From the IMG/VR virus record IMGVR_UViG_3300032782_000016, positions 1-46,092 of that record: a stretch of 46,092 nt of DNA, one strand, 5' to 3'. The stretch comes from a virus. Shown piece after piece: positions 615 to 42,455 of this stretch. The notes beneath the pieces were generated by a model that ran no database searches, was not told the DNA's origin, and worked only from the letters and a program-made list of their open reading frames with translations. A program made the translations under genes and the position numbers. Every line of letters begins with the position of its first letter. The first letter of the stretch is position 1.

Positions 615-2984
615 ATGCCCATCCAAGCCTCAGGCCCCCTCGACGCGAAAGTGCTGGTGGTAGGCGAATATCCTCATGAAGCAGACCTCCGACGTGGTGA
701 ACCCTTCATCGGAGGGGCTGGTTTTGAATTTACGAAAATGATGCAAGAGGCAGGACTCCCGCGAGAAACCTGCTGTTTGACGTATGTTATCAAGGATCGC
801 ATCCTCGGCCTGTCAACACTCATTGCCGAGAAGAAAAAGGACATTACCCCCCGTCACGTTCTCTACAAGGGAAAGTGGGTGATGCCGCAGATAGTGGATG
901 CCGTGGAGGCGTTGCGAGAGGAAATCAAACGCGTATCCCCCAATGTCGTTTGTACGAGTGGCAACCTCGCATTGTGGGCACTCACGGGTGAATGGTCGTC
1001 ATTCAATTGGCGCTCTTCCGTGATGGAATCCGACCTCATCCCCGGATTGAAAGTCATTCCGACACTACCCTTCAGTATCGTCAATGTGCAATGGAGCCAG
1101 CGTGGGATCATTGTGCATGACTTGAAGAGGGTGAAGAGGCATGAGGATAAGCCGGGGGTGATGGATAGGCAATACAATTTTCAAGACAACCCCACGTATG
1201 AAGAGGCTGCTCAAACCCTGAGTGAACTCATCGCCAAAGCAGAATCTGGTGAATTGACCAAACTCGGGGCCGACATTGAAACACGGGCCGGGCATATCTC
1301 ATCCATAGCATTCGCGTGGACACCGAAGAATGCCATTTGCATCCCTCTCATGAAAACCAACAAGCCGGAAGGCTATTGGACTGAAGAGGAAGAGGCAAAA
1401 CTAGTGTGGCTCATGTGCTATCTCATGCGCCTCGTTACCATCGTGGGCCAAAACTGGAACTATGACGCCCAATACATCTACCGCCATTGGCATTTCCTTT
1501 GCCCCAATGTGGTAGACACCATGATTCAGCAGCACTCATGTTTCAGCAATCTACCGAAAAACCTAGCGTTCCTCTCATCCATGTACTGTGAAGATCACCT
1601 GTACTGGAAAGACGATCGCACCAATTGGGAAGAGGGTCAAGATGGAGAAGGAGAAATCCAATACTGGCGTTATAATTGTACCGACGCTGCTAGAACACTT
1701 GCTATCCATAACGTGTTGGTTAGTGTCACGAATAGTCTTGGGCTTGCTGACGTTAACGATTTTCAGCAGTCTCTTCGGCAACGTGTTCTGCGGGCGATGA
1801 TTCGTGGTGTGCGCGTTGACCACAAGCTTCGTGCTCAACTTTCCTTTGACCTCATGAAAGAGGTGGCCGACCGCGAGCAGTGGATGCAAGACGTTCTCGG
1901 CCAAACCATCAACATCAAATCCCCTGCCCAGATGGCTGACTTCTTCTACCGTCAGATGGGCCAGCGTGAAATCAAAAACCGGAAAACCGGCAGCACCACT
2001 TGCAACGATGAAGCCCTCCACAAAATCGCCCAACGAGAGCCCATCCTTCTCCCCGTCACCAGAAAGATCGCAGAGTTGCGGTCTTTGGGTGTGTTCCACT
2101 CCACATTTGTGCAGGCTGGGCTTGATGTGGACGGTCGGATGCGATGCACATTCAATGTGTGCGGGACGGAAACTTATCGATTCGCCTCAAGCAAGAACGC
2201 CTTTAACACAGGGATGAATCTCCAGAATATTCCGAAGGGCGGTGAGATGGAAGAAGGCGGTCTGGAATTACCAAATATCAGAAAGCTCTTTATTCCAGAT
2301 CAAGGCAAAACCATCTTCGACATCGATCTCGATAGCGCTGACCTGAGAATCGTTACGTGGGAATCGGATTGTGTGTGGATGAAAGAGCAATTCAAGGCCG
2401 GAAATAAGCCTTATGTTGAAATTATGCGGGAGTATTACCGCGACCCGAGCAAAAACAAGAATAGTCCTGAATACAAAATATTTAAGAGCCTTTGCCATGG
2501 TACAAATTATCTAGGCACAGCAGATGGTATTGCCCCTCGTATTGGTCTGTTGGTACACGAAACTGAACGTATTCAGAAGTGGTATTACGCGGTTTGTCCA
2601 GAGATAAAGAAATGGCAAGATGATCTGAAGAAACAAGTCTCTGGTCGTCGGTATGTAGAGAATGCATATGGCTACAGAAACTATTTTTTTGATAGGATTG
2701 AGGGAACAATCTTTAACCAAGCCGTCGCGTGGGTGCCACAATCCAGTGTCGCATGCCTCATCAATCGTATTTGGGCGGAGCTTGAGGACAACCTAGAATC
2801 AGAAGGATTAGAGATTCTGATGCAGGTCCATGATAGTCTTGTGGGGTCTTTTGACAGGTATCGAAAAGAGGAAATGCTCAAACGGATTGTTGAGACTGCA
2901 TCAATTGCAATCCCGTATGCCGATCCTCTTTATATTCCTGTTGGTGTAGTGTCTAGTGATAATTCCTGGGGAGAATGCGGATGA
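615..2984 (+). CDS. Family A DNA polymerase with UDG-like N-terminal domain and 3'-5' exonuclease
   Basis: The 789-residue product replicates the phage genome. Residues about 10-175 resemble the family 4/5 uracil-DNA glycosylase fold: VLVVGEYPHEAD, EPFIGGAGFEF and NVVCTSGNLALWALTG follow the usual order, but the expected HPS/HPA motif reads LPFSIV near 151, so the catalytic histidine is missing. A DnaQ-like exonuclease follows with D220-x-E222, N280-xx-YD and YNCTDAART, which keeps its metal ligands. The polymerase domain has LPNIRKLF, motif A DLDSADLR (about 568-577), motif B FKSLCHGTNYLG (about 622) and motif C VHDS (about 737). ATG 615 has a modest AGGAC ribosome site. It lies downstream of the methyltransferase fusion in the same operon and overlaps the next gene. 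The polymerase assignment is firm; the UDG-like assignment is by motif pattern only. Confidence 0.95.
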   Translation: MPIQASGPLDAKVLVVGEYPHEADLRRGEPFIGGAGFEFTKMMQEAGLPRETCCLTYVIKDRILGLSTLIAEKKKDITPRHVLYKGKWVMPQIVDAVEALREEIKRVSPNVVCTSGNLALWALTGEWSSFNWRSSVMESDLIPGLKVIPTLPFSIVNVQWSQRGIIVHDLKRVKRHEDKPGVMDRQYNFQDNPTYEEAAQTLSELIAKAESGELTKLGADIETRAGHISSIAFAWTPKNAICIPLMKTNKPEGYWTEEEEAKLVWLMCYLMRLVTIVGQNWNYDAQYIYRHWHFLCPNVVDTMIQQHSCFSNLPKNLAFLSSMYCEDHLYWKDDRTNWEEGQDGEGEIQYWRYNCTDAARTLAIHNVLVSVTNSLGLADVNDFQQSLRQRVLRAMIRGVRVDHKLRAQLSFDLMKEVADREQWMQDVLGQTINIKSPAQMADFFYRQMGQREIKNRKTGSTTCNDEALHKIAQREPILLPVTRKIAELRSLGVFHSTFVQAGLDVDGRMRCTFNVCGTETYRFASSKNAFNTGMNLQNIPKGGEMEEGGLELPNIRKLFIPDQGKTIFDIDLDSADLRIVTWESDCVWMKEQFKAGNKPYVEIMREYYRDPSKNKNSPEYKIFKSLCHGTNYLGTADGIAPRIGLLVHETERIQKWYYAVCPEIKKWQDDLKKQVSGRRYVENAYGYRNYFFDRIEGTIFNQAVAWVPQSSVACLINRIWAELEDNLESEGLEILMQVHDSLVGSFDRYRKEEMLKRIVETASIAIPYADPLYIPVGVVSSDNSWGECG

Positions 2985-7743: not shown

Positions 7744-9078
7744 TTAACGAACCCGTCTCGCGCGGATAAATCCTGTGGCAGTCACCGTACCAGATGCAAA
7801 ACCTACCTGCGCCCCACACCGAAGGGTGGTGGTTGAGGCCAAAGACTCTCGAACCTGTGGGGTGGTGAGAGCCTGAATGGAGGGCGAGGACAATCCCGTA
7901 ATTATCTGACCAAAACCCGGAACTGTGTTGGGGTTTGCGTTGGCTGCAGTATTCACACCAACCTGAACTACGGAAATGGTGGCCCCAGAGTTAGCAAAAT
8001 ACACCGAACATTCAACGTCCCAATCACCCGCCGTCAACGATTCCGTGGCAAGATCGGCATAGACGCCATTGGAAAGGGATGTTCCTGATCCTGTGGTTGC
8101 CACATACTCCCCAACACTTCCGGCGTTCGCATTATTGTTGGTTGTGGTACCTGCGATTCCCGAAGTTTGTGAGGGGGTGAGGACGCCTGTTACTGTTAAC
8201 CCATCAGCAATACTCACAAGGCCACTTGAATTTAGTATTGAAATTGGGTTATCTACATAAGATCCAGCGTTAAATCTTGCAACTAACCAATTGCCAGGAG
8301 AAGTTCCAACCCCCCAAGTTTGGGTTCCGGAATTAAGGTAATTAACTCCTGCTATATCCCCACCGCTAGAATCATTGAGAGCCACACTAGCGAAAGCAGC
8401 CGCCACCGTAATCCCCGATCCTGTAGGGGTTGTCGTAGTGCCCAAAGAAGAAGCTTGGATTGCACTGTTACAGGCAATTCCCGTGCCGCTAGTGTATGAA
8501 AGGGCTTTGGAGGCCCCAGAGCAACTCGGCATTGCAAACGCTACAGGGCTAGCCGTGGAGCCCGTGAAATTCGCCACCACTGTGTCAGCGGCTTCCGTAG
8601 CCAAGTATGGGAGCGTCACGGAGCCATTTGAGAGCGTCAACGTACCGGAGGATGAGAGGTTGGTGAACGAACCCGTACCGGGCGTGCCCGAGCCAATCGG
8701 CCCCGGTGCCGCGAACGTCGTACCCCCCAACGTAGCCGCATTCACACTCGAATTACAGCCAAACCCTGTGCCTGAAGTGTAAGACAGAGCAGAAGAGGAA
8801 CTGGAACAATTGCCGACACTGACAGCCATTGGAGAAGCCGACGATCCGCTAACATTCCCCAACAGGGTGTTAGCAGACTGATTCGGAAGTGTGGCGGTGG
8901 TGGTGACAGTCAATGAAGGAATAGTCACCGGTCCAGTAAACGTCGCACCAGACAGTTTGGAATACATTGCGAACTGGGTATTCAACGCCGCCGCTGTCAG
9001 AAACTGTCCGGGCACGAACTGAGCATTTGCCCCTGCCGCCCACAGAACACCCATGAAAAAGAGAAGTTTTTTCATCAT
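7744..9078 (-). CDS. Tail-fibre protein with signal peptide and internal repeats, 444 aa
   Basis: The N-terminus MMKKLLFFMGVLWAAGANAQ is a Sec signal peptide closely similar to that of the spike gene at 6126-7730. The body is Ser/Thr/Gly/Ala-rich and contains at least two copies of a unit with ALSYTSGTG-x-x-CNS (about residues 95-115 and 190-210), each preceded by ANTLLGNVSGS/DTVVANFTGS-type segments with A-S-P and a cysteine. A later block NSGTQTWGVGTSPGNW is shared with the spike. The C-terminal domain has paired cysteines and LAS-T-T-L-R-C-G-A. Fibrous trimeric protein is the best guess. The start overlaps the upstream stop (TGATG region); no clear Shine-Dalgarno, so coupling is likely. 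Confidence 0.82.
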   Translation of the reverse strand: MMKKLLFFMGVLWAAGANAQFVPGQFLTAAALNTQFAMYSKLSGATFTGPVTIPSLTVTTTATLPNQSANTLLGNVSGSSASPMAVSVGNCSSSSSALSYTSGTGFGCNSSVNAATLGGTTFAAPGPIGSGTPGTGSFTNLSSSGTLTLSNGSVTLPYLATEAADTVVANFTGSTASPVAFAMPSCSGASKALSYTSGTGIACNSAIQASSLGTTTTPTGSGITVAAAFASVALNDSSGGDIAGVNYLNSGTQTWGVGTSPGNWLVARFNAGSYVDNPISILNSSGLVSIADGLTVTGVLTPSQTSGIAGTTTNNNANAGSVGEYVATTGSGTSLSNGVYADLATESLTAGDWDVECSVYFANSGATISVVQVGVNTAANANPNTVPGFGQIITGLSSPSIQALTTPQVRESLASTTTLRCGAQVGFASGTVTATGFIRARRVR

Positions 9079-9584
9079 ATTGTGCTCGAATCAAGGTAGA
9101 AGTTAACATCCAATTGGAACAAGCCGCCGCCAGGGCGCGGGGGGTTGGTAGAGGAAGGGGTGCCGGGTGGGAAAATCATCTGACCATTGGTGTCGAGAAT
9201 AGGGCAACCATAGGTATCTTGGATAGCCCAGCCACGCCACTGGACAATGGAAGGGTAGAAAGCGGTGTTGACGTAGGAAGGAACGGCGCAACCCGGTATC
9301 GAAAAACCTGGAATGGCGTTCTTTCCCTGAAGGGTGCAATATTCAGTGTAAGGAAATGAAGTGGTGTCGCACAGCGGAGGCTGCCACGGACGGGACCACG
9401 GCACAGTCTGGTTATCCTTCACACCACGAAGGAAGTCTTGCGCATTGCGCCTCTCCTTGTGATGCTTGCAAGTGTACAACCCATTCCACGTCAGCTCCAT
9501 ACGGTCGGCCTTCTCCTTCGCTCCGCACAGATCGCACGTTGCGTTCCAGGAACCGCTCTTGAAGAAGTCTGCCCGGCCAGCCAT
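9075..9584 (-). CDS. Tail-region protein with N-terminal zinc-finger-like motif, 169 aa
   Basis: The N-terminus contains CDLCGAKEKADRMELTWNG and then YTCKHHKERRNAQDF, a CxxC...CxxH arrangement that can hold zinc, followed by LRGVKDNQTVPWSRP. This layout recurs in a family of phage virion-region proteins of unknown function encoded beside tail-fibre genes. The C-terminal half is rich in P, G and aromatics and ends LFQLDVNFYLDSSTI. It opens the tail-fibre cluster; its start lies 11 bp downstream of palindrome R3. Confidence 0.8.
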   Translation of the reverse strand: MAGRADFFKSGSWNATCDLCGAKEKADRMELTWNGLYTCKHHKERRNAQDFLRGVKDNQTVPWSRPWQPPLCDTTSFPYTEYCTLQGKNAIPGFSIPGCAVPSYVNTAFYPSIVQWRGWAIQDTYGCPILDTNGQMIFPPGTPSSTNPPRPGGGLFQLDVNFYLDSSTI

Positions 9585-9595
9585 ATGATTTATTT

Positions 9596-9623
9596 GTCCA
9601 AATTAATGTAGATTAATTCCTAT
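9596..9623. repeat. Dispersed palindrome R3
   Basis: Degenerate left arm GTCCAAATTAA, centre TGTAGA, right arm TTAATTCCTAT. It lies between the small tail gene 9633-9863 and the zinc-finger gene starting at 9584; the start codon is too close for a promoter initiating within the element to leave a normal leader. Confidence 0.85.
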
Positions 9624-9632
9624 AAACAATTC

Positions 9633-9863
9633 TCACACCACCGTTCCAGCCCCGTTCACCCACACATTCGGGTTCACAGACTTCAGCCATATAGGTTGGC
9701 CAATCGTCGTGTCGAATGTGTGTTGACCAATCACCGCATTCGATGGCCGCGTAGCCGTGGTACACGTCGCGGCATAGGCATCATTGACCGTCGAGACCAT
9801 CGCATCGAACCACCGTTTATCGGGCTCGCCATGCGGCGGCACCGGGGATACTTTCTGGCTCAT
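9633..9863 (-). CDS. Small tail protein with GQxxFDTTxG motif, 76 aa
   Basis: The C-terminus reads TRPSNAVIGQHTFDTTIGQP then IWLKSVNPNVWVNGAGTVV, the same RPS-x4-GQ-x2-FDTT-x-G...W...WV-x-x-AG pattern as the protein at 5820-6104. The N-terminal part (PPHGEPDKRWFDAMVSTVND) is a short helix with conserved RWF. Homologous small proteins lie beside tail genes in many podoviruses. ATG 9863 lies 3 bp after the stop of the ATP-grasp gene. Confidence 0.75.
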   Translation of the reverse strand: MSQKVSPVPPHGEPDKRWFDAMVSTVNDAYAATCTTATRPSNAVIGQHTFDTTIGQPIWLKSVNPNVWVNGAGTVV

Positions 9864-9866: not shown

Positions 9867-11183
9867 CTACCACTCCCAGGATTCGGCATAGCCCAAGGCC
9901 TGAAGCTTCGGCAACTGCTTCTCAAGCCGATTGCCAATGTCGGTGCGGTACATCGGGGAATTGGGGATTTCCAGCTCATCGATCACATCGTAAGCCCGCT
10001 TCTTTGACTGTTGAACAGTCTTCCCCGTGCCCGTAGCAATAAGAAGGTAGTCACCGGCGGACACCATCATCGGCTCTTTTTGACCCTTCTCGTTAAACCC
10101 CTCGCCAAGCATCATTTCAGCGGGATGAATGTTATAGCGATTCCCCGCATTGATCCCCCACACAGGGAAACCCGTGACCTCTTTTCGGGTAATGTGCGAA
10201 TATGGGAACTCTGGCATCGTCACCACAACCCCCGTTGCAATATCAGTCGAGGGCTTGAACGTATCCTTGCCATGCAGGAGGTCAAGCATCCAATTGGCAA
10301 CATCAGGGTGCAAGGCCTGTTGGATCTGAAAGAGAGGCCAACCGTGGCGGGAGGTGAACTCAAGGGGGCACAGGGAGCCATCCTTGCCAATCATCACCGC
10401 CACATCGATGTAACCAGTGTAGCCTTCTCGGATCAATCGGCCTTCGAGCGGAGCGAGCAAAGCCTTCGCCAGTGAACTCTCCCCCATCGGCACATACCGC
10501 ATCACCGTGCCCTGCTCTCCCGTGTTCACCCCTTTGTCATCGTTCATGAACTTTTTGAATTCAAAGTTCTCCAGAACGTGCTCAGCGAAGCCATCCCGGC
10601 CCATCCACCCTCCGACAGCCATTTCAATGCCGGGGAAGAATTCTTGAAAGATAAATGGAACGGGCTTTTTCCCGCTCTTCTTCCAATGCTCCAGCATGAA
10701 GAGCATGTCGGGGGCACCCTTCGACACATAGGACAGGGCCTTGTCAACATCCGCGCAGGGTTTGCTGACGTAGCGCTTGTCCATGTTAGCCATCTGATGC
10801 GCGATGGCCTCATCGTATCGTTTGAACTCCACCACATCGGGGCAGTCAATTCCGCAGTCTTTGAAGACCTGTTGGCCCTTCATACGCTCCAATTCCCATG
10901 CGGTGCATTCGAGATTGGCGCAAAAGAGGGGGTAGCCCCGGCTCCGGTAGCCCTCAAGCTCATGCGTATACTTACAGTTATCACTGTTAAGAATGAGATC
11001 GGCCCATCCCATGCTCGTCCGCCAATCTCGGATCTTCGGCATCAGACCATCGCCAACAGTGTAGCGACCCCCGCCAGCCAATTTGTCCGGCCCGAGGAAC
11101 CAGCGGACTTCATGGCCTTGGGCTTCGCAGCGCAGGGCAAAGTCGAGGAAAGAGGCGGTGGGGTCAATCAACAGTATCCGCAT
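9867..11183 (-). CDS. PurD-like ATP-grasp ligase, 438 aa
   Basis: The whole-length pattern follows glycinamide ribonucleotide synthetase (PurD), which joins glycine to 5-phosphoribosylamine with ATP. Seen in order: a Rossmann-like start (MRILLIDPTASFLDFALRC), a central region with RYVSKPCADVDKALSYV, FIFQEFFPGIEMAVGGWM (the EE-F-x-G-E region), NDDKGVNTGEQGTVMRY (matching GPNTGGMG), GYTGYIDVAVMIGKDG, PLEFTSRHGWP (matching LEFN-x-R-x-GDPE) and a C-terminal domain with SAGDYLLIATGTGKTVQQSK and MYRTDIGNR. The metal-binding asparagine of EFN is replaced (EFT), so substrate or metal use may differ. It is encoded among tail genes, between palindromes R3 and R4. An ATP-grasp ligase is well supported; the exact reaction is not. 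Confidence 0.85.
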   Translation of the reverse strand: MRILLIDPTASFLDFALRCEAQGHEVRWFLGPDKLAGGGRYTVGDGLMPKIRDWRTSMGWADLILNSDNCKYTHELEGYRSRGYPLFCANLECTAWELERMKGQQVFKDCGIDCPDVVEFKRYDEAIAHQMANMDKRYVSKPCADVDKALSYVSKGAPDMLFMLEHWKKSGKKPVPFIFQEFFPGIEMAVGGWMGRDGFAEHVLENFEFKKFMNDDKGVNTGEQGTVMRYVPMGESSLAKALLAPLEGRLIREGYTGYIDVAVMIGKDGSLCPLEFTSRHGWPLFQIQQALHPDVANWMLDLLHGKDTFKPSTDIATGVVVTMPEFPYSHITRKEVTGFPVWGINAGNRYNIHPAEMMLGEGFNEKGQKEPMMVSAGDYLLIATGTGKTVQQSKKRAYDVIDELEIPNSPMYRTDIGNRLEKQLPKLQALGYAESWEW

Positions 11184-11676
11184 TTTGAACCTGAGTGTAT
11201 GGAGCTGGTTTTACATCAGCCCACAGTCTGCCTAAACCTATATAACGGACTGTATTCTGTGACACACCGAATAAGCGGCCGATGGATCTTTGTGATTGTA
11301 GTCCTTGATCCAGCAAGAATTTTATCTGTGCCGCAGATTCTGGGGTCAATTTTAAATCTTTTCTCTTTCGTTGGGAAGCTCTAGCCCGGCCTTTAGCAAT
11401 TCTATCAGCCATATTCATAGCGTGAGTTGCTATTTGCAAGTGGTCTGGGTTCACGCAACCGGGATTGTCACATTTATGCATGATATCCAAAGACTCGTCG
11501 AACGGACCTTTATGAATCCAATACGACACTCTGTGGGCTAATTTGCATGCATCAGGCAATTTAAATAGACCATAACCGCCTGCATTGAGGGCGGCTACCC
11601 ATTCCCAGCATCCAGTATCTTCGTCTTTTACATATTTGGAGTGGAACAGGGCGATGCGAAGAGGTTCAAGGTCCAT
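11164..11676 (-). CDS. HNH homing-type endonuclease, 170 aa
   Basis: The N-terminal half has the phage HNH signature: GCWEWVAALNAGGYGLFKL, AHRVSYWIHKG and IMHKCDNPGCVNPDHL, which supplies the H...N...H metal and catalytic residues and a zinc pair. The C-terminal half (LTPESAAQIKFLLDQGLQ then SIGRLFGVSQNTVRYI) is a helix-turn-helix that would choose the target. Such enzymes are typically free-standing mobile genes. Its last 20 bp overlap the start of the PurD-like gene, which suggests insertion upstream of that gene rather than into it. ATG 11676. Confidence 0.93.
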   Translation of the reverse strand: MDLEPLRIALFHSKYVKDEDTGCWEWVAALNAGGYGLFKLPDACKLAHRVSYWIHKGPFDESLDIMHKCDNPGCVNPDHLQIATHAMNMADRIAKGRARASQRKRKDLKLTPESAAQIKFLLDQGLQSQRSIGRLFGVSQNTVRYIGLGRLWADVKPAPYTQVQNADTVD

Positions 11677-12051: not shown

Positions 12052-12052
12052 C
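12025..12052. repeat. Dispersed palindrome R5
   Basis: Left arm GTAGGAATTAA, centre TCTACA, right arm TTAATCTCTAC. Its last base is part of the stop codon (TAG on the minus strand, 12052-12054) of the large internal virion protein. Confidence 0.92.
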
Positions 12053-14487
12053 TAATAATTGGTATTCGGCCCCGCAGCCGTGCCAATCGCCGCCACAATA
12101 TGTTGCTGGATGAGCGAGAGCTTGTCTTTGCCCTTGTAGGCGGCCAAGAGTCGGTTGACATCACTCTCCAGTGCCTCCAATCTTTCTGGGGGGATCATCT
12201 TGCCATCCGCCAGCATAGGCCGGATGCGTTCCGTCCACTGCTGCCACAAAGTGTCTTCCGACATATTGCGAACGACCTGCCGCACGCTCTGCTCCAGCAC
12301 CTCTTTGCCCCCCGGTTGCCCCGCCAGATACCGTGCTGCCAGCCTCGTTTGCTCTGGTTTACCAGTCAGGAGAAGACTGCGAACGGCTCCGGGGCTCTCC
12401 CCACTCTTCAGAATGGTCTCCAGCCCCTTTGCCGGTGCAAATCTCTCTTCACGCGCCGCCGCAGCGGCCTTGGAACCTTCCTCAGCCAACCGTTGTTGTG
12501 TCGCAGCGGCACCCTCAGCGGCTTTGGAGGCTCTCTGAATGCCAGCCTGCCGTTCAGCCTCGGCTGCAGCAGTGCCCGCGATCCGTGTTTGCTCTGCTTC
12601 TTTGGCTTTGGTGGTGGCTCTCGTGGTGAGTTTGCTATTCACACGCTCGATTTGCTCCAGCTTGTTCGCATAGGCATTTGCCCTAGCCGTCAGCCCAGGC
12701 ACCTCCCGCATCCAATCTTGGTTGTCACGGACCCACTTCTTGGATTGAGCCGCCGACTGTCCCTGCATCGACCGTGCCGTGTAGTCCGCAGCTTGCCTGT
12801 CAACCAATTGAGGGTTGCCTGTCAGCTCTTTGGCATCCCGAATTGACTGTTGACTGTTGAAGAAGTATCTAGGCAGTGTCTTTGGATCGGCGTTGTATTG
12901 TTCCTGATTCAACCTTTGCACCGCCGTAGCTTTCTGCCCAGATTTAGACTCGAATTTGGCTAGTTCTCCTGTATCTTTGGCATATTCCGATTGCAATTTA
13001 CTTTGGACATTCTCACCAGCCGCATTCTTTCCGACGAACTCTTCCTGTGCTTTCGAGATTTGGGCGTACATCTTTTTGGCCGCGTTCACGCCAATCGCCT
13101 CATACCCCTCGGGCGTCGGATTCCCCGCAATCACATCCCCAAGCCGCCTGCGCACCTGATCCACGGCCTCGAAAGACAGCTTTTGCTTCTGGGGGTTAAC
13201 GGCATCATAGACTTGCTGGTACACACGTCTCACCCCCGCATCAGTGGTCTTTGCAAACCCACCCTCACCCACTAGTTTTCCTGTCAGTTCTTTCTTGAGG
13301 CTAGCCATCGCAGCAGTCTGGCCAATGTCCTGACCTGCCTCTTCCTTTGCTTTGACTGCAGCATCACGCTCAGCGACTGTGGTTTGGTAAGCTTCATTTC
13401 GAGCCTGAATCTCCACACCTTGCTTTGCCGTGGCGGCTTGGCGCAAGGTGTTACCAATGTCAGACAATTCCGAGACTTGACCGACTTTTGCTAGTTCCGG
13501 TGCCGCCTGCGCCAACACCCTGTTGGCCGTTGCCAACTTACCATTAGAAGCTTTGTCCAAGGCTGCGGCCCGTTTGGCGGCATCGGCACGGATGGACTCG
13601 GCATGGGTCCGGGCATCGTCAATGATCCGCGTGGCGGCCCCGGCATCCGATTTGGCAATAGCCGCCGCCCGTTGATGAGCGTCGGCCAACACGGCATCTG
13701 CAGCCTTATCCGCTGCCTGCCGATCGGCCTCCACACCCTTCTGAAGCATGGCATGCATGGCCGTTTGGGGTTGACCGGCCTCAGCCAGTTTCGCCAGGTT
13801 CTCTCTAGCAGTCATCACGGCCTTCGCAATATCCGGTGACGCCCCCAGAGCCTTCTGCGCAAAGTCCCACGCCAACTTTACAGGCTCTTTCACGAATCCA
13901 ACCACTGTGCCTGCACTTGGGGTGAGCATGCCTCCAGCCACACGGGCAATGTCTGCCTGCGTTCGCGAGCCTCCACGAGCTTCTGTAATCTGACCAGCTG
14001 CTTCGGAGGTGAGACCACTGGCGGCACCAATCCCGGCCTCGGCCCAACGACCGGCTTTAAGAGCTGCTCCGGTTTCGATAAGAGCCGGGCCAACGGCTTC
14101 CCCAACGTAGGGCAGAAAACTGGCAGCCACCCCAAGACTGGAAACAATTTCAGGCGACAATGCCCCTGCAATTCCGCCGAATGCTGTGCTACTTGCAATA
14201 GACTTGGCAGCACTAGAAATAGTGGGGGGAGGCACTGGTTTGTCATTGGCGTCGAGACGGTTCAAGGGGTTGGCTTGGCGAAGGCCTGCAATGGCGTCTT
14301 TGACACGATCAGAAGCTGTCGAGGGTTTGGCAGGTGCTTGTGCTGCAGGCTTCGCCGTTTCTTCCTTGGCTGTGCCTGCCGCCAACTGTTGCTGCAGCAC
14401 TTGAAAAGCCTGTTCCTGCGTTGCCCCTTCAGGCCCCGTCACAGTGTAATTCTTGCCATCCGGTGAGGTGAAAGTGAAATCTGGCAT
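12052..14487 (-). CDS. Large internal virion / DNA ejection protein, 811 aa
   Basis: ATG 14487 is preferred over 14532 because it follows the upstream stop by one base. The N-terminus MPDFTFTSPDGKNYTVTGPE then GATQEQAFQVLQQQL is a short domain found at the start of podovirus internal proteins. A hydrophobic/glycine-rich region follows (FGGIAGALSPEIVSSLGVAA), which could enter a membrane, and then some 500 residues of alanine/glutamine/lysine-rich helix predicted to form coiled coils (for example AAAIAKSDAGAATRIIDDAR). This fits ejection proteins that leave the head to build a conduit across the host envelope. It is the largest protein in the window and forms a cluster with the next two genes. 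Confidence 0.8.
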   Translation of the reverse strand: MPDFTFTSPDGKNYTVTGPEGATQEQAFQVLQQQLAAGTAKEETAKPAAQAPAKPSTASDRVKDAIAGLRQANPLNRLDANDKPVPPPTISSAAKSIASSTAFGGIAGALSPEIVSSLGVAASFLPYVGEAVGPALIETGAALKAGRWAEAGIGAASGLTSEAAGQITEARGGSRTQADIARVAGGMLTPSAGTVVGFVKEPVKLAWDFAQKALGASPDIAKAVMTARENLAKLAEAGQPQTAMHAMLQKGVEADRQAADKAADAVLADAHQRAAAIAKSDAGAATRIIDDARTHAESIRADAAKRAAALDKASNGKLATANRVLAQAAPELAKVGQVSELSDIGNTLRQAATAKQGVEIQARNEAYQTTVAERDAAVKAKEEAGQDIGQTAAMASLKKELTGKLVGEGGFAKTTDAGVRRVYQQVYDAVNPQKQKLSFEAVDQVRRRLGDVIAGNPTPEGYEAIGVNAAKKMYAQISKAQEEFVGKNAAGENVQSKLQSEYAKDTGELAKFESKSGQKATAVQRLNQEQYNADPKTLPRYFFNSQQSIRDAKELTGNPQLVDRQAADYTARSMQGQSAAQSKKWVRDNQDWMREVPGLTARANAYANKLEQIERVNSKLTTRATTKAKEAEQTRIAGTAAAEAERQAGIQRASKAAEGAAATQQRLAEEGSKAAAAAREERFAPAKGLETILKSGESPGAVRSLLLTGKPEQTRLAARYLAGQPGGKEVLEQSVRQVVRNMSEDTLWQQWTERIRPMLADGKMIPPERLEALESDVNRLLAAYKGKDKLSLIQQHIVAAIGTAAGPNTNY

Positions 14488-14488
14488 G

Positions 14489-15970
14489 TTAGTGTACCTG
14501 TACGGACCAACCTGCGGGGAGCGGGGGAACATTCACGGGAGCATTGCCAGTGCCTGAGCCAGGAAGGCCAACCCCACCAGATTGGGACTCTACTTGCATC
14601 TTCTCTGCCGTGTCAGCCATAGAGCCCCCTGTCGTCAGCATCTGACGGCGAAGCTTGGCATCCTTGGTAGCCTTCAGCACGTCTTCAGGCAATGGCACCT
14701 TCTGCATCTGCTTCAACGCCTCTTGCCGCATCGCCTCTTGTTCCGGGTTTGGAAGAGTGCCAGTGGACTCTAGGCGGTTACGGATGATATCAATGGCGTT
14801 GGCATATTTGAACACAGCCACTGCCTTTGGCGTTCCGGCCTGTGCTGTAACAATATCTTGCATCTCGTTAATGGTGGCTTGATTCGCTCCTCGTCCTGCT
14901 CCTAGTGTCATAGCACGAGAGATTTCCAGGCCAAGCCCTTTGGTCGCAACATTGTAATCTTGCATATCCTCTGGGGTGAGGGCATTAGTTCCAGTGTTGG
15001 TAAGTTGGTGGATAAGAGTGCCATCGTTGATGCCAGTGAAAGGGCCTGTAGTCTGCCCTGTGTCCATTGCACCAATAATACGCAGGCCACGGAGAGCTTC
15101 TCGACTGGATGCCACGATAGCTTGTGACACATTGCCAGCATTTTGACCTTGTTTCGACGCCCCAATCTTTACATATGCAGGATCAGACAAGTCCCTGGTG
15201 CCCTTGATTGACTGGTCAGGATTATACTCGTATATGCCAGTAGCTGTTTCTATGTGACTAGGAGCTTTTTCAGATTTGGCCTGTTTCATCGACTCTCGCA
15301 GCAAGGCTTGGTCAGTGCGCTTCAGACGAACATCCTCCTCGTGATCGGCATGGGCTTCTCGCAGACGTTGCTGGTTTTGCTGAAAATCATTTTGTTTTTG
15401 GATGAAGTCAGCCCTCTGCGAAGCAGTCTTGGATGCCAGAGTCGCATTCGTCCGCCACGCCTCGAACTGAGGTGTACCAGGTGCTGGAATAGTTGTTGGA
15501 TTCTGCCCGGCATCGATAGCCTTTCGCATCAAATCCTTGTAACCTTCAGGAGTGGGATTTGTTCCATAGTCTTCAGCAGCCGTAGCCAATGCTTCTTTCT
15601 TCACCTGCTGTTGCTGCGCAACGGCTGCGGCCTGCTCTTTGGCTTCCTGAAGCTTGCCCTTCGCCAATTCCCCCATCTCATTCGCAGAGGTGAAGTCGCC
15701 ATTCTGCAGTGCAATGGCCGCGCCTTTCTCGTACATACCGGCGGCCTTCACAGGGTCCGTAACGTTGCTTGCATCCTTGGCTGCTTCAGACGACAAAAAC
15801 GACCCCACAGCCTGCTGGGTTTGCTGTTGGCGTTGTGCGTTGGCAATGGCGATCTGACCCATCGCGATTTGTTGCTTTTTCAGTTGAATGTCTTCTTGCT
15901 GCTGCTGAAGCTCTTGGCCTGTGATGATGTTTCGTCCGGCGGCCAGCCCGAGGTTTGTCAAAAAGCCCAT
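14489..15970 (-). CDS. Internal virion / ejection protein, 493 aa
   Basis: A glutamine-rich helical N-terminus (MGFLTNLGLAAGRNIITGQE then repeated Q and K) is followed by long helices with AHADHEEDVRLKR and a globular C-terminal part with SREALRGLRIIGAMDTG, GTNALTPEDMQDYNVATKG and MTLGAGRGANQATINEM. The start MGFLTNLGLAAG resembles those of other phage internal core proteins. It lies between the other two ejection candidates, overlapping neither by more than a few bases. Role inferred from composition and gene order. Confidence 0.75.
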   Translation of the reverse strand: MGFLTNLGLAAGRNIITGQELQQQQEDIQLKKQQIAMGQIAIANAQRQQQTQQAVGSFLSSEAAKDASNVTDPVKAAGMYEKGAAIALQNGDFTSANEMGELAKGKLQEAKEQAAAVAQQQQVKKEALATAAEDYGTNPTPEGYKDLMRKAIDAGQNPTTIPAPGTPQFEAWRTNATLASKTASQRADFIQKQNDFQQNQQRLREAHADHEEDVRLKRTDQALLRESMKQAKSEKAPSHIETATGIYEYNPDQSIKGTRDLSDPAYVKIGASKQGQNAGNVSQAIVASSREALRGLRIIGAMDTGQTTGPFTGINDGTLIHQLTNTGTNALTPEDMQDYNVATKGLGLEISRAMTLGAGRGANQATINEMQDIVTAQAGTPKAVAVFKYANAIDIIRNRLESTGTLPNPEQEAMRQEALKQMQKVPLPEDVLKATKDAKLRRQMLTTGGSMADTAEKMQVESQSGGVGLPGSGTGNAPVNVPPLPAGWSVQVH

Positions 15971-15981
15971 GATGGTTTCCT

Positions 15982-16623
15982 TTAGACGGAGAAGCCCCAG
16001 GAGTTGCCGCCACCCCCGAATCCATAAGTATCCCCGCCACCACTATAGTAACTGCTGGCTGTTCCGGAGGGGACCGAGTAGCCAAAAGCATTAGCAGAGT
16101 CTGGGCTAGCGAAGGGATTTATGTTACCGTAGTTGTTTAATCCAGTGGTGACAGCTCCGCCGATTTGGTTGCCAAGAGCGCTGGCGGCTTGCTGATTCGA
16201 GACGTTTTGGCCTTGCAGGATTTGGCCCGCCGTGCCAGGGGAGCCAATGTTTGCGCCAGCCAATTGGGCCAACAGCTCTGCTTGGTTGTAGTACTGCGTG
16301 GAGGCTTGGTTGCCAGCCTGCGTGGTCAATGCAGACAGCACATTCCCACTGTTGAGCATGCCTTGTGCTGCGGCCGAGCCTTCCACACCCTTCAGTGCCT
16401 GATCCATCTGGAACTGATATCCCGGTGTGCTAGTCACCGAAGAGGGGTTGTTAATGAGATTTGACAGCATGGTTTGATACTGCGGGCGTTGCGACGCAAA
16501 GGGATCGGCAGCGTTCGCGGCTTGTTGCGAGCCTCCACCCCCACCACCCACTGCCGAACTAACAAGCGACGATGTTGCCGCTCCGGCAACACCTGCCCCA
16601 ACTGCTCCGGCGATTACGCACAT
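15982..16623 (-). CDS. Small internal virion / DNA transfer-like protein, 213 aa
   Basis: The N-terminus MCVIAGAVGAGVAGAATSSL is a hydrophobic glycine/alanine segment, followed by a glycine run and by TPGYQFQMDQALKGVEGSAA, MLNSGNVLSALTTQAGNQAS and YYNQAELLAQLAGAN. The block PGYQFQ...G......G...SG is widespread in phage proteins encoded between head-tail connector and ejection genes and is linked to DNA transfer. The C-terminus is glycine/serine/tyrosine-rich and low in complexity. First of the three-gene ejection cluster. Confidence 0.75.
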   Translation of the reverse strand: MCVIAGAVGAGVAGAATSSLVSSAVGGGGGGSQQAANAADPFASQRPQYQTMLSNLINNPSSVTSTPGYQFQMDQALKGVEGSAAAQGMLNSGNVLSALTTQAGNQASTQYYNQAELLAQLAGANIGSPGTAGQILQGQNVSNQQAASALGNQIGGAVTTGLNNYGNINPFASPDSANAFGYSVPSGTASSYYSGGGDTYGFGGGGNSWGFSV

Positions 16624-16625: not shown

Positions 16626-17120
16626 TTACTCCCCCTTCGGAAGGTCTTTGAGCTTGAGTTCCATTACCACATCATCTGCGATGTAGCCACGCTTTTCGAG
16701 GATCTTGAAGAGCAACCCCGTGCGGGTGACCGGCCAGCCCACGACGCTAACGCCGCGGGTGCGGAATTCTTCTTCGACGCTCGACATGAAGCGTGGCATG
16801 CACTGGCGATGGTCTGGTCGCACGTAGAAAGTGTCCACATTGCCGCACAATTCTTTGCGAAGGTGCAGGCTGTGGTAGGTGATAAGAAGGGCGTAGCCTT
16901 GCAAAACTCCCTCACCATCCCGCAACGTCATGGCAATGAGGAAACCACCAGCCTGCATTTCAAGATACCGCTCGTTGTGCGGGTCAATCGGCAACCCTCG
17001 TTGGCCATGATAGGCGCATGTGTCCTGTTTGATTTCCGAGCATTCATCCCAACACTCTTGACCCAGAGGGGTGATTTCCGCTGCGAGGTCGAGGGTGAAA
17101 GGCTCAATTGCAATTTTCAT
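16626..17120 (-). CDS. GNAT-family N-acetyltransferase, 164 aa
   Basis: The product starts MKIAIEPFTLDLAAEITPLG and shows a GNAT-like layout: GGFLIAMTLRDGEGVLQGYA (beta 4), CGNVDTFYVRPDHRQ (the V-x-P-x-x-R/Q region where the acetyl-CoA pyrophosphate loop begins) and a C-terminal GWPVTRTGLLFKILEKRGY. The usual Q-x-x-G-x-G/A is degenerate. Such proteins are often encoded next to virion genes in podoviruses; the acceptor is unknown. ATG 17120 is preferred to 17132, which would start inside palindrome R6 without a ribosome site. Confidence 0.75.
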   Translation of the reverse strand: MKIAIEPFTLDLAAEITPLGQECWDECSEIKQDTCAYHGQRGLPIDPHNERYLEMQAGGFLIAMTLRDGEGVLQGYALLITYHSLHLRKELCGNVDTFYVRPDHRQCMPRFMSSVEEEFRTRGVSVVGWPVTRTGLLFKILEKRGYIADDVVMELKLKDLPKGE

Positions 17121-17130
17121 GGAATTTTCC

Positions 17131-17158
17131 ATAGGAATTAAAGTAGATTAATTTCTAC
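17131..17158. repeat. Dispersed palindrome R6
   Basis: Arms ATAGGAATTAA and TTAATTTCTAC around centre AGTAGA, followed by AAATAATTATT. It fills the gap between the gp10-like gene (stop at 17170) and the GNAT gene (start 17120). Confidence 0.9.
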
Positions 17159-17169: not shown

Positions 17170-18615
17170 TTACCGGGGCAATCCCGCCGTCAGAACCTTC
17201 ATTTCATTCAATCTCATCGGCGTGTTGCCAGTGTACTGGAGCATCCACGCCCTGCGACGGCTTGAACCACAGTTTCGCATTTGCTTGCGCACCGTGGACA
17301 TGTCGATTTGTCGTGGAGTGCTGAATGTTTGATAATCGTCATCACTGTAGCTCACATTCACCACCGTCCCGGCAGTTTGCGTGTCCGCAATCTGTTGCAT
17401 GGCCGCAAACCGTTTCCAATTAAGTGTACCCCAATCGTAGTTGGGAGTAACGCAGGTCATGTTGATGTTGCCTGTGGCATCGGTGTAAAGCGAGGGATCG
17501 ATGCTCAAAATCCGGCCTGTGGTGGTGTCTTGGGTAAAGTCCCCAAAAGGGTAACCTTGGTAGGACAGATAACCCCGGCCCACAAAGTATTGCTCCACAC
17601 CACCCACTACACTAGACCAGGTGCTCCAAACCCCTGTTGAAATGTCATACACAAGAGTCAAATTGAGCGGGGGGAGATTGAGTACATAAAAAGAGTGCCC
17701 TAAAATCTGAATCCCAAAGGACCAAATGTGCAAAGAGGTAAATTGAAGTGTCGTGTTATTGAGAATTCGTTCAATGAAGGGGTCACTGATCTTTTGCATG
17801 GTCAGGCCATTAAGCATTTGAACGGAGCGACCGTACAAGGGAGTGGACCCAACAAAATACGTCACATCGTTAATTTCGCTTACCGTTGCAGCATTGAATG
17901 CCCCTGTACGGAAAGAGGCACTGAGAACAGGATTCAGCGCGATGCCAGAGCCGTTAGGGGCAGCATTGGCATCGTAGTAAACCTGAAGACCTTGCTGGTA
18001 GAAGGCCAATATGTAGTTAAGGTGCCGAGTAGCTGTCACCCCCGCTCCATACTCAATATCAGCCTGCGTGAAGTCCAGAGCTGGCCACGTAGTTGCATCG
18101 TTGATAGCGCTGCCGATGAGTTTCCCAGATTGGGTCATGGCATAGTAGACACCATCAAGGTAAGCAATCCCAAAAGTTGGATTGAGGCTCACGTAGTTGG
18201 TGTCAGTCACCTTCGTGAAAGTTGATCCGTTAAACGTCCACAATTCACCTTCTTGGTTTTGGATGACAGTCTTATAAGGTGAGGATTGACTGTCAATAGA
18301 GGTAAAGAACTGTCCTGGATTCGAGACGCTAGGGATAGCGATACCGGCCCCTTGAGTGGGGGGGCTAAACGGATAGGCAGTATCGCTTACAATAAAATAA
18401 GGCGCACCATTGAACTTGAAGAAGCCTTGAGCAGTGCCTGTGGCAGTGGATTGGTAGGAGGTGCCGGGGCGTTTGATGACTGCCACACCTTCACCCTCTT
18501 CCTTTTCCATAAAGCAGTTGACCATCTTGGCATCTGTTGTCAGCGTGCCATCCCGCGTGCCAATGGGGTGCCCCCAGGAAATGCTCAGCTCATTGTTGGA
18601 TTGTGCTGTTGCCAT
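17170..18615 (-). CDS. P22 gp10-like packaged-DNA stabilisation / tail hub protein, 481 aa
   Basis: The pattern matches the P22 gp10 family of tail needle-attachment (hub) proteins: an N-terminal MVNCFMEKEEGEGVAVIKRP with RPGT, a beta-propeller-like middle with IWSFGIQILGHSFYVLNLP, NLTLVYDISTGVWSTWSS, and a C-terminal RRRAWMLQYTGNTPMRLNEM. These proteins close the head-tail channel after packaging. ATG 18615 with AGAGGA upstream is better placed than GTG 18618; it overlaps the upstream stop by one base (TGATG). Together with the gp4-like gene upstream this places the phage among P22-type podoviruses. Confidence 0.88.
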   Translation of the reverse strand: MATAQSNNELSISWGHPIGTRDGTLTTDAKMVNCFMEKEEGEGVAVIKRPGTSYQSTATGTAQGFFKFNGAPYFIVSDTAYPFSPPTQGAGIAIPSVSNPGQFFTSIDSQSSPYKTVIQNQEGELWTFNGSTFTKVTDTNYVSLNPTFGIAYLDGVYYAMTQSGKLIGSAINDATTWPALDFTQADIEYGAGVTATRHLNYILAFYQQGLQVYYDANAAPNGSGIALNPVLSASFRTGAFNAATVSEINDVTYFVGSTPLYGRSVQMLNGLTMQKISDPFIERILNNTTLQFTSLHIWSFGIQILGHSFYVLNLPPLNLTLVYDISTGVWSTWSSVVGGVEQYFVGRGYLSYQGYPFGDFTQDTTTGRILSIDPSLYTDATGNINMTCVTPNYDWGTLNWKRFAAMQQIADTQTAGTVVNVSYSDDDYQTFSTPRQIDMSTVRKQMRNCGSSRRRAWMLQYTGNTPMRLNEMKVLTAGLPR

Positions 18616-19325
18616 CACATCCTCTGACGTTCACTAGGGGTGAAAAAGACACTCGTCTGTTCTTGTCCGAACTCTGCGTTGAAGAACTTGTCACGATAGC
18701 CAGTGGCCTTGTCGTTGATCTCTCTGCGCTCGTCAGCGGGGGTGCGGTATTCGAGGCAGATTTCGTCGGCCAAACACCACTTGAGCATGCGGTAGGCTTC
18801 CTGCGGAAAGTACAGATTGTTGGTCAACGATCCCACATCCATCATCTGCAATTGCACCACAACATGGATGGTGTGCGTAGCGTCAATCGGCACATCGTAC
18901 AGAGTGAGAGTGCCACCATTCAATTGCGGATCGTACCAAACTTGATTGGGAATGCCCGGTTGAAACTTTTGCCCCAAGGTGTCCCAATCATACCGGGAGG
19001 TCATGATGAGAGTGACACTATTCCCGGCTTGATCCACAATGTACTGGTCAAGAATCCGCAGCGGGAGTGTCGTACCCGTGATGGTCGACAGATTGTAGGT
19101 GGCTTGCCCAATGACAGTGGGAAAAGAAACGTCTTTCACACACCACAAGGGCAAGCCATCCTGTGCCATCTCCTTTACCAGGATTTCCAATGCCTGAAGG
19201 CAATTATCTTGATCCGTGTTGGGGATGGTCTCGTACTCATCAAAGGCCCCCGTCAGCCTCAGCGCCGCCTGCACTATCTGCAGCGCTGTCATTCCAAATG
19301 TGTAAGTGCCGCTGTAGGTAGGCAT
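18615..19325 (-). CDS. P22 gp4-like head-tail connector / tail accessory protein, 236 aa
   Basis: The N-terminal helices (MTALQIVQAALRLTGAFDEY, CLQALEILVKEMAQDGLPLW) and the following beta region (VIGQATYNLSTITGTTLPLR, TSRYDWDTLGQ, VWYDPQLNGGTLTLYDVP) form the pattern of the podovirus adaptor ring that docks onto the portal. A helical C-terminal extension (LKWCLADEICLEYRTPADER) resembles gp4 of P22. It lies just before the gp10-like gene, the usual order for assembly of the neck. Confidence 0.82.
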   Translation of the reverse strand: MPTYSGTYTFGMTALQIVQAALRLTGAFDEYETIPNTDQDNCLQALEILVKEMAQDGLPLWCVKDVSFPTVIGQATYNLSTITGTTLPLRILDQYIVDQAGNSVTLIMTSRYDWDTLGQKFQPGIPNQVWYDPQLNGGTLTLYDVPIDATHTIHVVVQLQMMDVGSLTNNLYFPQEAYRMLKWCLADEICLEYRTPADERREINDKATGYRDKFFNAEFGQEQTSVFFTPSERQRM

Positions 19326-35654: not shown

Positions 35655-36059
35655 ATGCCATTACCCACCACTCTTAAAGGCTTCGGCAGCGAGTACGAGC
35701 AATGCCTTCTTCGCGCACATGCCACCCTGTCCGAAGGCTCCGAGGAATACGTCATCCAGTTCGCCTCTCCAAATATCGCCACTTCCATGCGTGGGCGTGT
35801 GTATGCCTACTTCAAAGCCCTGCGCAATTCCACGGAGAGACCAGATTTGACGGCTCTATGCACCGATGTGTCGTTGCGATGTGCCGGGAGTGCTCTTGTG
35901 TTCTTCCGATCGGAGGATGCGCTAGATCGCGTGCGCATGAGGGAAGCATTGGGGCTGCAGCCCGGATTCGATGCCGTGGAAACCCGTGGCGTCATCGCAC
36001 CGGATTCCTCATTGACCACCAACATGGAGAAACTAGCCGCCATTCGCAAACGCAAGTAA
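35655..36059 (+). CDS. Hypothetical protein, 134 aa
   Basis: Starts MPLPTTLKGFGSEYEQCLLR and contains YVIQFASPNIATSMRGRVYA, YFKALRNSTERPDLTALCTD, ALVFFRSEDALDRVRMREAL. The pattern looks like a small alpha/beta protein; the R-G-R-V-Y-A-Y-F-x-A-L-R segment resembles phage proteins of unknown function. GGGGAAACC precedes ATG 35655. Upstream repeats suggest separate regulation. Confidence 0.7.
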   Translation: MPLPTTLKGFGSEYEQCLLRAHATLSEGSEEYVIQFASPNIATSMRGRVYAYFKALRNSTERPDLTALCTDVSLRCAGSALVFFRSEDALDRVRMREALGLQPGFDAVETRGVIAPDSSLTTNMEKLAAIRKRK

Positions 36060-36073
36060 TCACGCTCGGGCCA

Positions 36074-36102
36074 TTGCATTGTTATGGGGTTCCCTGTATA
36101 GT
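36074..36102 (+). promoter_or_regulatory. Sigma-70-type promoter
   Basis: TTGCAT (36074-36079), 17-bp spacer, TATAGT (36097-36102). This is the best standard promoter in the window and lies 58 bp upstream of the gene at 36160, in a gap free of genes. Confidence 0.72.
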
Positions 36103-36159
36103 TCTATCAACGGCACACAAAACGAGGTGCCGCCCCCAACAATCCTGACGGAGTGAACG

Positions 36160-36726
36160 ATGAGCGAAGAACAAGCAGTGGCAAAGGGTACGCAATACGA
36201 AGAAGTGGTGATGGATGACGGCAGTGTCGTCAAGTTCCCGGGCAAGCGTCAGCTCCTGAAATCGAGCACGGTTGACCATCACGGCCATGTAACCACGCGC
36301 TTTGATTTCCGCAATGGTGAAGTGCGCTCTTTCACCATCGCTCCCAATGCTGAACTCTTCGCCAAGTTCGCTGCGCATGGCATCGAGCAGAAGGTTGGCG
36401 ATGAAGTCGCCGGTCTGAAGGACATTGAGGACATGGTTCTCGCGGTGGAAGAGGTCATCGACCGTCTGAACGAAGGCGAATGGACAGCCAAGCGTGAATC
36501 GTCGGGTCTGGCAGGTACGAGCGTGCTGGCCCGTGCCCTCATCCAGCAAACCGGCAAGACGCCGCAGGCAATCAAGGAATACCTCAAGACGAAGACGAAT
36601 GCCGAAAAGCTGGCCCTTCGCCAAAATCCGAAGATCGCCCCGATTGTGGCTGAGCTTGAAGCCAAGAAGAAGAAAAAGGAAAAGGAAGCAGTGGACACGG
36701 ATGCACTGCTTGACGAACTGGCATAA
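36160..36726 (+). CDS. Conserved phage protein with C-terminal LLDELA motif, 188 aa
   Basis: N-terminal part: VVMDDGSVVKFPGKRQLLKS and VTTRFDFRNGEVRSFTIAPN, a beta-rich domain. Then FAAHGIEQKVGDEVAGLKDI, MVLAVEEVIDRLNEGEWTAK, VLARALIQQTGKTPQAIKEY, RQNPKIAPIVAELEAKKKKK and the terminal DTDALLDELA. It is paralogous to 33370-33993 and has its own promoter, so it may be made in quantity. An acidic amphipathic tail like DALLDELA could dock onto a partner. Function unknown; followed at once by the tRNA. Confidence 0.8.
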   Translation: MSEEQAVAKGTQYEEVVMDDGSVVKFPGKRQLLKSSTVDHHGHVTTRFDFRNGEVRSFTIAPNAELFAKFAAHGIEQKVGDEVAGLKDIEDMVLAVEEVIDRLNEGEWTAKRESSGLAGTSVLARALIQQTGKTPQAIKEYLKTKTNAEKLALRQNPKIAPIVAELEAKKKKKEKEAVDTDALLDELA

Positions 36727-36735
36727 GCCTTTGAT

Positions 36736-36812
36736 GGGATCGTGGTGTAATTGGCAAGCACATAAGGCTCTTCACGCCTATGGAGCGGGTTCAATTCCCG
36801 CCGGTCCCTCCA
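36736..36812 (+). tRNA. tRNA, anticodon probably UUC (Glu), with anticodon-stem bulge
   Basis: 77 nt including encoded CCA. Acceptor GGGATCG/CGGTCCC (one G-U pair), D stem GTGT/GCAC with GG in the loop, T arm GCGGG-TTCAATT-CCCGC, discriminator T. The anticodon stem pairs TA-(A)-GGC with GCCTA only if one A is bulged; the 7-nt loop TCTTCAC then gives UUC, with C where U33 is normal. The glutamate call is therefore uncertain and the tRNA may be impaired or unusual. Confidence 0.85.
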
Positions 36813-36867
36813 AATGTACCTGCAATAGACCGTGTAATTGAGCCTCCACGGTTGTGCCTTGCAGTGA

Positions 36868-36905
36868 CGGTAGCTAATCCCCCGGTTAGCTACCGTTTTT
36901 CTTTT
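36868..36905 (+). terminator. Rho-independent terminator after the tRNA
   Basis: Perfect 10-bp stem CGGTAGCTAA (36868-36877) and TTAGCTACCG (36886-36895), 8-nt loop, then TTTTTCTTTT. Palindrome R12 starts 5 bp later. Confidence 0.93.
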
Positions 36906-36909
36906 ATTT

Positions 36910-36937
36910 GTAGGAATTAATAATTATTAATTCCTAT
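36910..36937. repeat. Dispersed palindrome R12
   Basis: Arms GTAGGAATTAA and TTAATTCCTAT around symmetric centre TAATTA. It lies between the terminator and the gene starting at 37036. Confidence 0.93.
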
Positions 36938-37035
36938 GGAAAACTCCGAATTGAGAGAAAAGTCTCATTGGAATATGACCCTACAATGCGTCATAGTATG
37001 GCTGTGGACTTCCCCACTCTACATACGAGGCTCAA

Positions 37036-37299
37036 ATGGCAACGAAGAAACCGGCAGTATCCACTCTTCTCAAGGCTGCAAACGCGCGTATCGAAGCGCT
37101 TGAGAGAGAGGTGAAGTCACAAGAGAGCAGCTACAAATATGCTCAAGATGGGCGCACCGCAGCCGAGAATGAACTGGCTCAAGTCCACGCATTCCTCGAC
37201 ACTCTCCCCGGTCTCCCACCCCAGACTGACAGGGAAACCTACAAGAAGCATCCCGCAATGACCCGTCTGGCGGCATGGCTCGCCATGAAGGTAAACTGA
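37036..37299 (+). CDS. Small coiled-coil protein, 87 aa
   Basis: Basic start (MATKKPAVSTLLKAANARIE), then a heptad-like helix (ALEREVKSQESSYKYAQDGR) and a C-terminal helix with MTRLAAWLAMKVN. ATG 37036 carries a GAGGCTCAA box. A possible weak promoter (TTGGAA at 36968 and CATAGT at 36992, 18-bp spacer) lies upstream. Function unknown. Confidence 0.72.
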   Translation: MATKKPAVSTLLKAANARIEALEREVKSQESSYKYAQDGRTAAENELAQVHAFLDTLPGLPPQTDRETYKKHPAMTRLAAWLAMKVN

Positions 37300-37315
37300 C
37301 CCTTGGAGGCTCACC

Positions 37316-37849: not shown

Positions 37850-38054
37850 CTTGACGGATTGGTATCCGGCGGAGATTAAGCCCTGCCGAGTCGGCTGGTA
37901 CGAATGTCGCTATGCCCTTGGTGGGGAAATTTACAGATATTGGTTTGACGGCAGTTTTTGGGTAACAGCACCGGAATGGGAACGGAAGCTTAATTATGGA
38001 AATGTGCATACCCAAGGAGAAACCTGGCGCGGTCTCAAGGAACCTGCAAAATGA
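37821..38054 (+). CDS. Hypothetical protein, 77 aa
   Basis: The conserved-looking part is LTDWYPAEIKPCRVGWYECR, GEIYRYWFDGSFWVTAPEW and ETWRGLKEPAK. The pattern W-x-P-x-x-I-x-P-x-R-x-G-W-Y-E resembles small phage proteins of the DUF551-like type, whose function is not known. The start is uncertain: ATG 37821 or ATG 37836; neither has a strong ribosome site, and both overlap the upstream gene, so translation is probably coupled. The stop overlaps the next start. Confidence 0.7.
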   Translation: MDGIQMHNNNLTDWYPAEIKPCRVGWYECRYALGGEIYRYWFDGSFWVTAPEWERKLNYGNVHTQGETWRGLKEPAK

Positions 38055-38622: not shown

Positions 38623-38675
38623 CACCCTCAACCCCTAACGCGTGCTGGCACGCACAGACAAACTTGAAGGCTCAT

Positions 38676-40016: not shown

Positions 40017-40017
40017 C

Positions 40018-40194: not shown

Positions 40195-40214
40195 ACTGAG
40201 TTGACTATTTTCTA

Positions 40215-40242: not shown

Positions 40243-40260
40243 AAACAAATGGAGGTTTGT

Positions 40261-40678: not shown

Positions 40679-40706
40679 CCACAACCGAAGGATAGGAGAA
40701 AGAAGA

Positions 40707-42453: not shown

Positions 42454-42455
42454 CC

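Follow-up and report, generated by a model that had tools for sequence, protein, structure and literature searches.

What is a full-length relative of glycinamide ribonucleotide (GAR) synthetase, the PurD protein, doing among the late genes of a phage? The gene lies in a window (the whole stretch of DNA analysed here, 46,092 bases) that corresponds to an IMG/VR virus record, and an initial annotation had supposed that its product adds an amino acid or a related group to a virion or host surface component, or to DNA, rather than making purines. As will be argued, the ligase probably works in virus assembly or injection by linking molecules, and not in purine synthesis. The related phages come from soil and freshwater, and in nearly all of them the gene stands beside those encoding DNA-ejection proteins.

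The late module of the window is podovirus-like and occupies the minus strand (terminase, portal, major capsid protein, Hc3, DNA-ejection protein), while the plus strand carries the genes for replication, with a family A DNA polymerase alongside a Dda-like helicase, an exonuclease, and a Sak4-like protein. The polymerase (615-2984, plus strand) has a uracil-DNA glycosylase domain at its N-terminus (UDG, which scores 50 bits and passes the cut-off). The ligase had been described as lying between tail genes, which is right, and its place can be given more sharply: between three ejection-type proteins (12052-16623) and a group made up of a 76-aa protein, a 169-aa protein, and the tail fibre (7744-9863; Table 1). 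Upstream of the ejection genes, the slot that follows Hc3 holds interchangeable small enzymes in different phages: a weak GNAT, a cupin, an Asp/Asn beta-hydroxylase-like protein and, judged by eye, one sulfotransferase-like protein (equivalents of window 16626-17132 are L050:322-690, L042:2235-2801, L082:2520-3029, and L293:12198-13132).

Table 1. Features of the ligase gene and of the late module around it, in window coordinates
Feature	Coordinates	Strand	Remarks
Tail fibre protein	7744..9078	-	
169-aa protein with Cys/His motif	9075..9584	-	Common downstream of the ligase
Small virion structural protein, 76 aa	9633..9863	-	
PurD-like ATP-grasp ligase	9867..11183	-	438 aa, ATG start; profile matches and AF2 model
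EFTSR, residues 275-279	10347..10361	-	E275, T277, R279 invariant; EFNxR in PurD
Asp260 codon	10404..10406	-	Same in all 40 phage and all 20 cellular relatives; Tyr/Phe in PurD
NTGEQGT loop, residues 220-226	10506..10526	-	T221, G222, E223, G225, T226 invariant in the family
HNH endonuclease	11164..11676	-	Between ejection protein and ligase in this phage; 20-nt overlap with the ligase start
Large ejection-type protein, 826 aa, third of cassette	12052..14532	-	Position and size suggest the ejection role
Second ejection-type protein, 493 aa	14489..15970	-	Assigned by position
First ejection-type protein, 213 aa	15982..16623	-	PHROG 598 'DNA ejection'
Weak GNAT-like protein, variable enzyme slot	16626..17132	-	15.5 bits, below cut-off
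Head closure Hc3 / stabilization protein	17170..18618	-	
Conserved structural-module protein (PHROG 12985)	18615..19325	-	Unrelated bait for the lineage

That the protein is related to GAR synthetase over its full length, as first annotated, is upheld by matches to the purD, GARS_A, and GARS_C profiles, by a profile search of PDB, and by its predicted fold. The NCBIfam purD profile (TIGR00877) matches the 438-aa ligase with 52.2 bits (4.3e-14) and does not reach the curated cut-off of 288 bits; Pfam GARS_A and GARS_C both match, each below its own cut-off. When PDB is searched with a profile made from 40 phage relatives, GAR synthetases alone come up, the best at 4.9e-28. The AF2 model has a mean pLDDT of 92.6 and superimposes on the GAR synthetase of Aquifex (PDB 2yw2) with a Z-score of 33.9 and an rmsd of 3.3 over 394 aligned residues. 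All 13 top entries of the fold search are GAR synthetases (Z 29.6-33.9). The next fold family is PurK, at 23.7, so that PurK and the rest lie about 6 units or more lower. Other collections give little. None of the 38,880 PHROG families matches at E <= 0.01, in the one library of BFVD structures nothing matches over the full length (by query length the TM reaches 0.43 at best, and the hits are all generic ATP-grasp proteins), and megablast with the first 25 kb of the window finds nothing. Among annotated or cultured phages, the homologs come down to a single environmental genome, MW202796, with 44.9% identity. There the gene (MW202796.1 42140-43456; L213) is unannotated, encodes 438 aa, and is the last of the late module in a phage labelled Myoviridae.

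The position of the gene recurs across the lineage, just behind the gene for the largest ejection-type protein. In 82 loci with a long open reading frame upstream, several of them near-copies and so not all independent, the nearest such frame encodes an ejection-type protein of 400-1700 aa; the ligase gene starts within 1 kb of a large ejection protein in 77 of the 82, and the overlap is 4 nt in 27. The two are separated by other genes in the window and in phages closely related to it. Many of the large ejection-type proteins (e.g., those of L086, L180, L068, and L044) display short tandem motifs in their N-terminal parts, such as NAFADLPPV, DLFAGFP, NPWEEYSQ, and IPDFSKVPFV. To avoid the bias of searching with the ligase itself, we used as bait an alignment built on another protein of the structural module, unrelated to the ligase (window 18615-19325). 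Where at least 8 kb follow the bait, 27 of 30 loci carry the ligase gene, 4.9-9.6 kb further on and on the same strand. Two of the other three (L293 and L294) are true members of the lineage without the gene, and the third (L313) is too short to reach the slot. The gene is near-core in one podovirus-like lineage and, since two clear members lack it, not obligatory. A recurrent small peptide gene next to the ligase, of the kind that encodes a graspetide-like precursor, was sought and rejected, as the neighbouring small open reading frames vary among phages and none is universal.

What might such an enzyme do there? In the manner of ATP-grasp ligases, a carboxylate (perhaps that of glycine or another small amino acid) would be activated as an acyl phosphate and then coupled to an amine, giving an amide bond at the cost of ATP. 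An ejection protein or other virion protein would be modified in this way before or during assembly, and its gene would belong to the same module. A target within the module seems most likely because the ligase gene lies among late genes and often overlaps an ejection-protein gene. We put the chance that the substrate is found within the virion or ejection module a little below even. We put equally high, and no higher, the reading of the protein as a PurD-derived carboxylate-amine ligase of the ATP-grasp type, distinct from GAR synthetase, that modifies an ejection or other virion protein. What favours an ejection or other virion component as the target is gene position only, and the late slot next to the ejection genes could be a mere convenience of expression. 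The addition of an amino acid or related group, as first supposed, would fit this chemistry; nothing speaks specifically for DNA or surface targets.

Perhaps the ligase is not the modifier of an ejected protein but is itself packaged, ejected with the DNA, and active on some molecule of the host as infection begins. There is precedent in the virion RNA polymerase of N4, which is packaged and ejected with the DNA. The ligase gene is directly behind, and often overlaps, the last of the three ejection-type genes, and its near-core status in the lineage also suits an ejected enzyme. However, among the loci inspected no fusion of the ligase to an ejection protein was seen, and the ligase lacks the N-terminal tandem repeats that many ejection proteins have. 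We consider this course of events unlikely.

Modification of a protein of the same module is also to be set against what is known of the wider family. Pattern scans of IMG/VR give at least 535 stretches that encode relatives of the ligase and about 19 that match the PurD profile, both figures being lower bounds set by short patterns and their ratio rough. A scan of genomes brings out two further sets: prophage relatives in Paraburkholderia (46-48% identity) together with further MAG contigs, and cellular proteins of about 430 aa and about 30% identity in Micrarchaeota, Woeseiaceae, Parvularculaceae, haloarchaea, Ekhidna, and others, one of them annotated as 'phosphoribosylglycinamide synthetase C domain-containing protein'. 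The tree included ten true PurDs, from bacteria and archaea whose genomes also carry a family member. These ten form one clade (100/100) with the ligase family outside it; the cellular paralogs form one clade (98/98); and phage sequences join those of prophages in a group whose support, 92/99, falls slightly below what counts as strong. The cellular paralogs are a sister group, similar over their full length to the phage ligases, with which they have in common EFT, the TGEMGT loop, D14, W60, D260, and E208. They differ in forming their own clade, in occurring as single genes, and in having Tyr/Thr where the phages have Trp/Leu after EFTxRxG. Their distribution (genome contigs L097-L161) is patchy across archaea and bacteria, alongside true PurD. 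No recurrent partner genes are found in their neighbourhoods, where only strain-level clusters recur and offer no functional clue.

This absence of recurrent partners suggests a substrate that cells also have, and keeps a common metabolite as a candidate. The ligase might then act on a small molecule or on DNA, producing an amide metabolite or adding an amino acid to a modified base, with its place in the late operon a matter of timing only. That the paralogs are single genes in cells is in line with a common metabolite, but no gene of a base-modification or metabolite pathway was recognised among the open reading frames scanned (a set only partly covering the small early ones), and a fixed position beside ejection genes would be unusual for such an enzyme. 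This possibility, too, is an unlikely one, on a par with ejection of the ligase.

A third possibility, the one that automatic annotation implies, is that the gene encodes a true GAR synthetase, an auxiliary metabolic gene that boosts purine synthesis. The fold is that of PurD throughout, and purD is listed among viral metabolic genes, having been reported as a purine gene in a complete snow phage genome (PMC11097641) and in vent virus protein clusters (PMC12043954). The residues tell against it. We compared 73 relatives (40 phage, 13 prophage/MAG, and 20 cellular) with the 10 true PurDs, the acceptor, metal, and ATP roles of residues being inferred from the PurD alignment, conservation, and general knowledge of ATP-grasp enzymes rather than from a bound structure; a search for a ligand-bound structure of the ligase family found none. 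The family and PurD have in common K141, E187, K210, T221-G222, G225, E275, R279, P283, and R413-D415-I-G, of which K141, E187, and E275 are invariant in all 73 relatives. The GGREH motif in the glycine-rich N-terminal region, present in 10 of 10 PurDs, is absent from the family. Arg379 of PurD (the Arg of GGRV) gives way to Tyr, Val, or another residue, N286 to T277, Tyr/Phe to D260, G227 to E223, D291 to W/Y, and E293 to L/T or another residue; the GDPE that follows the EFN motif in PurD is thereby GWPL in most phages and GYPT in most cellular relatives. Among these, GGREH, the GGRV arginine, and the D and E of GDPE are putative acceptor-side residues, and they are replaced in all relatives. 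Phosphoribosylamine is an unlikely acceptor.

The change from EFN to EFT (residues 275-277), already pointed out in the initial annotation, is confirmed: T277 occurs in 73 of 73 relatives and Asn in 10 of 10 PurDs. As an argument, it stands in part. EFT is a family signature and not damage to a single gene, but it does not signify loss of the metal site. We ruled out such a loss because an acidic residue, Asp260, stands where PurD has Tyr/Phe. Asp260 is present in 69 of the 73 relatives (9 of 13 in the prophage/MAG rows).

To these replacements of residues that PurD keeps invariant are added the position outside PurD in the tree and the score of 52 bits against a cut-off of 288. The genome contents agree. 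No AIRS_C domain, of the PurL/PurM type, was found in 20 phage records, and a true PurD (397-579 bits) is also present in 11 of the 12 genomes searched that hold a family member, whether chromosomal paralog or prophage, so the searched genomes already have the enzyme. On the strength of the residues, the tree, the cut-off, and the missing genes of the rest of the pathway, purine synthesis was ruled out, and we regard a true GAR synthetase as quite improbable. The first annotator's doubt that this was plain purine synthesis is accordingly well founded, the more so in view of the fixed place in the ejection module, and the tree of PurD and its relatives that had been proposed as a check does not put the ligase within true PurD. 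Judged by its sequence, the protein is best described as a full-length PurD relative that is not PurD and belongs to a separate, unnamed family.

The gene is under purifying selection. Compared with four close relatives, dN is 0.016-0.021 and dS 0.36-0.47, a dN/dS of about 0.04. Also, in two relatives, L250 (16985-19312) and L265 (6161-8452), the ligase gene is interrupted in frame by inserts of more than 300 aa, at GEMG^T226 and GVN^T221, respectively, both within the invariant NTGEMGT loop. Both inserts have Cys1, TP(N/S)H, a terminal Asn, and Thr at +1, and that of L250 contains a LAGLIDADG domain above the Pfam cut-off. We take both to be inteins. Such elements usually insert at conserved motifs in the active sites of important enzymes, and their presence in the invariant loop is therefore support for a working enzyme. 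That the protein might be a catalytically dead ATP-grasp fold with a structural role, as its structural neighbours might lead one to think, is most improbable given catalytic residues invariant in 73 relatives, the low dN/dS, and inteins in the presumed active-site loop. The protein is very probably an active ligase and something other than PurD.

How does the family stand to known systems? With PurD (TIGR00877; PDB 2yw2, 1gso) it has in common the whole fold, the ATP-grasp core, the C domain, the conserved Lys, Glu, and Arg residues, and RxDIG; the differences are those set out above, in the GGREH loop, the presumed metal site (Asn replaced by Thr and Tyr/Phe by Asp), the Arg of GGRV, and GDPE. 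Phages of the LUZ24 type encode an ATP-grasp protein with an amidoligase and a glutamine amidotransferase, a cluster of early genes known from UFV-P2 (PMC3890496). Both are phage-encoded ATP-grasp proteins, but that of the cluster is early, smaller (218-291 aa as annotated), and accompanied by amidoligase partners. Amidoligase_2 has no match in the window and is found in 2 of 20 records that carry the ligase family, and a link to the amidoligase cluster was ruled out on that count. Alcaligenes phage vB_Af_QDWS535 (OK172329.1; L214), whose portal and 169-aa protein are related to those of the window, has no PurD-like match; it has an early ATP-grasp/amidoligase/GATase/GGCT cluster at 35678-44432. 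Phages also encode R2K/CDC123 peptide ligases, ATP-grasp proteins for which protein modification has been predicted (PMC4431377); by description they belong to another ATP-grasp clade, whereas profile and fold searches with the ligase rank GAR synthetases first. A thaumarchaeal report turned out to concern a casposon inserted in the purD gene of its host and not the ligase family. A search of the open-licence literature turned up no paper on the family or on its association with the ejection module. What was known before is the PurD fold and the ATP-grasp chemistry; nothing in the literature searched describes the family, the genes around it, or the role that it likely plays.

Some of the viral purD genes that have been read as purine auxiliary genes are probably members of this ligase family, and they may often be so, because at least 535 members were found in IMG/VR against about 19 matches of PurD type. 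The findings also point to a family of PurD-like enzymes in cells where PurD is already present. For phage biology, the steady pairing of an ATP-dependent ligase gene with ejection-protein genes offers a concrete lead on how chemical modification may enter into the delivery of phage DNA. It is possible, with the chances distinctly against it, that a near-core late enzyme of a widespread and largely uncultured lineage covalently modifies the ejection machinery, or is itself ejected, and that it does so through a previously unknown reaction. The PurD-derived family to which that enzyme belongs also has a cellular branch that extends across bacteria and archaea.
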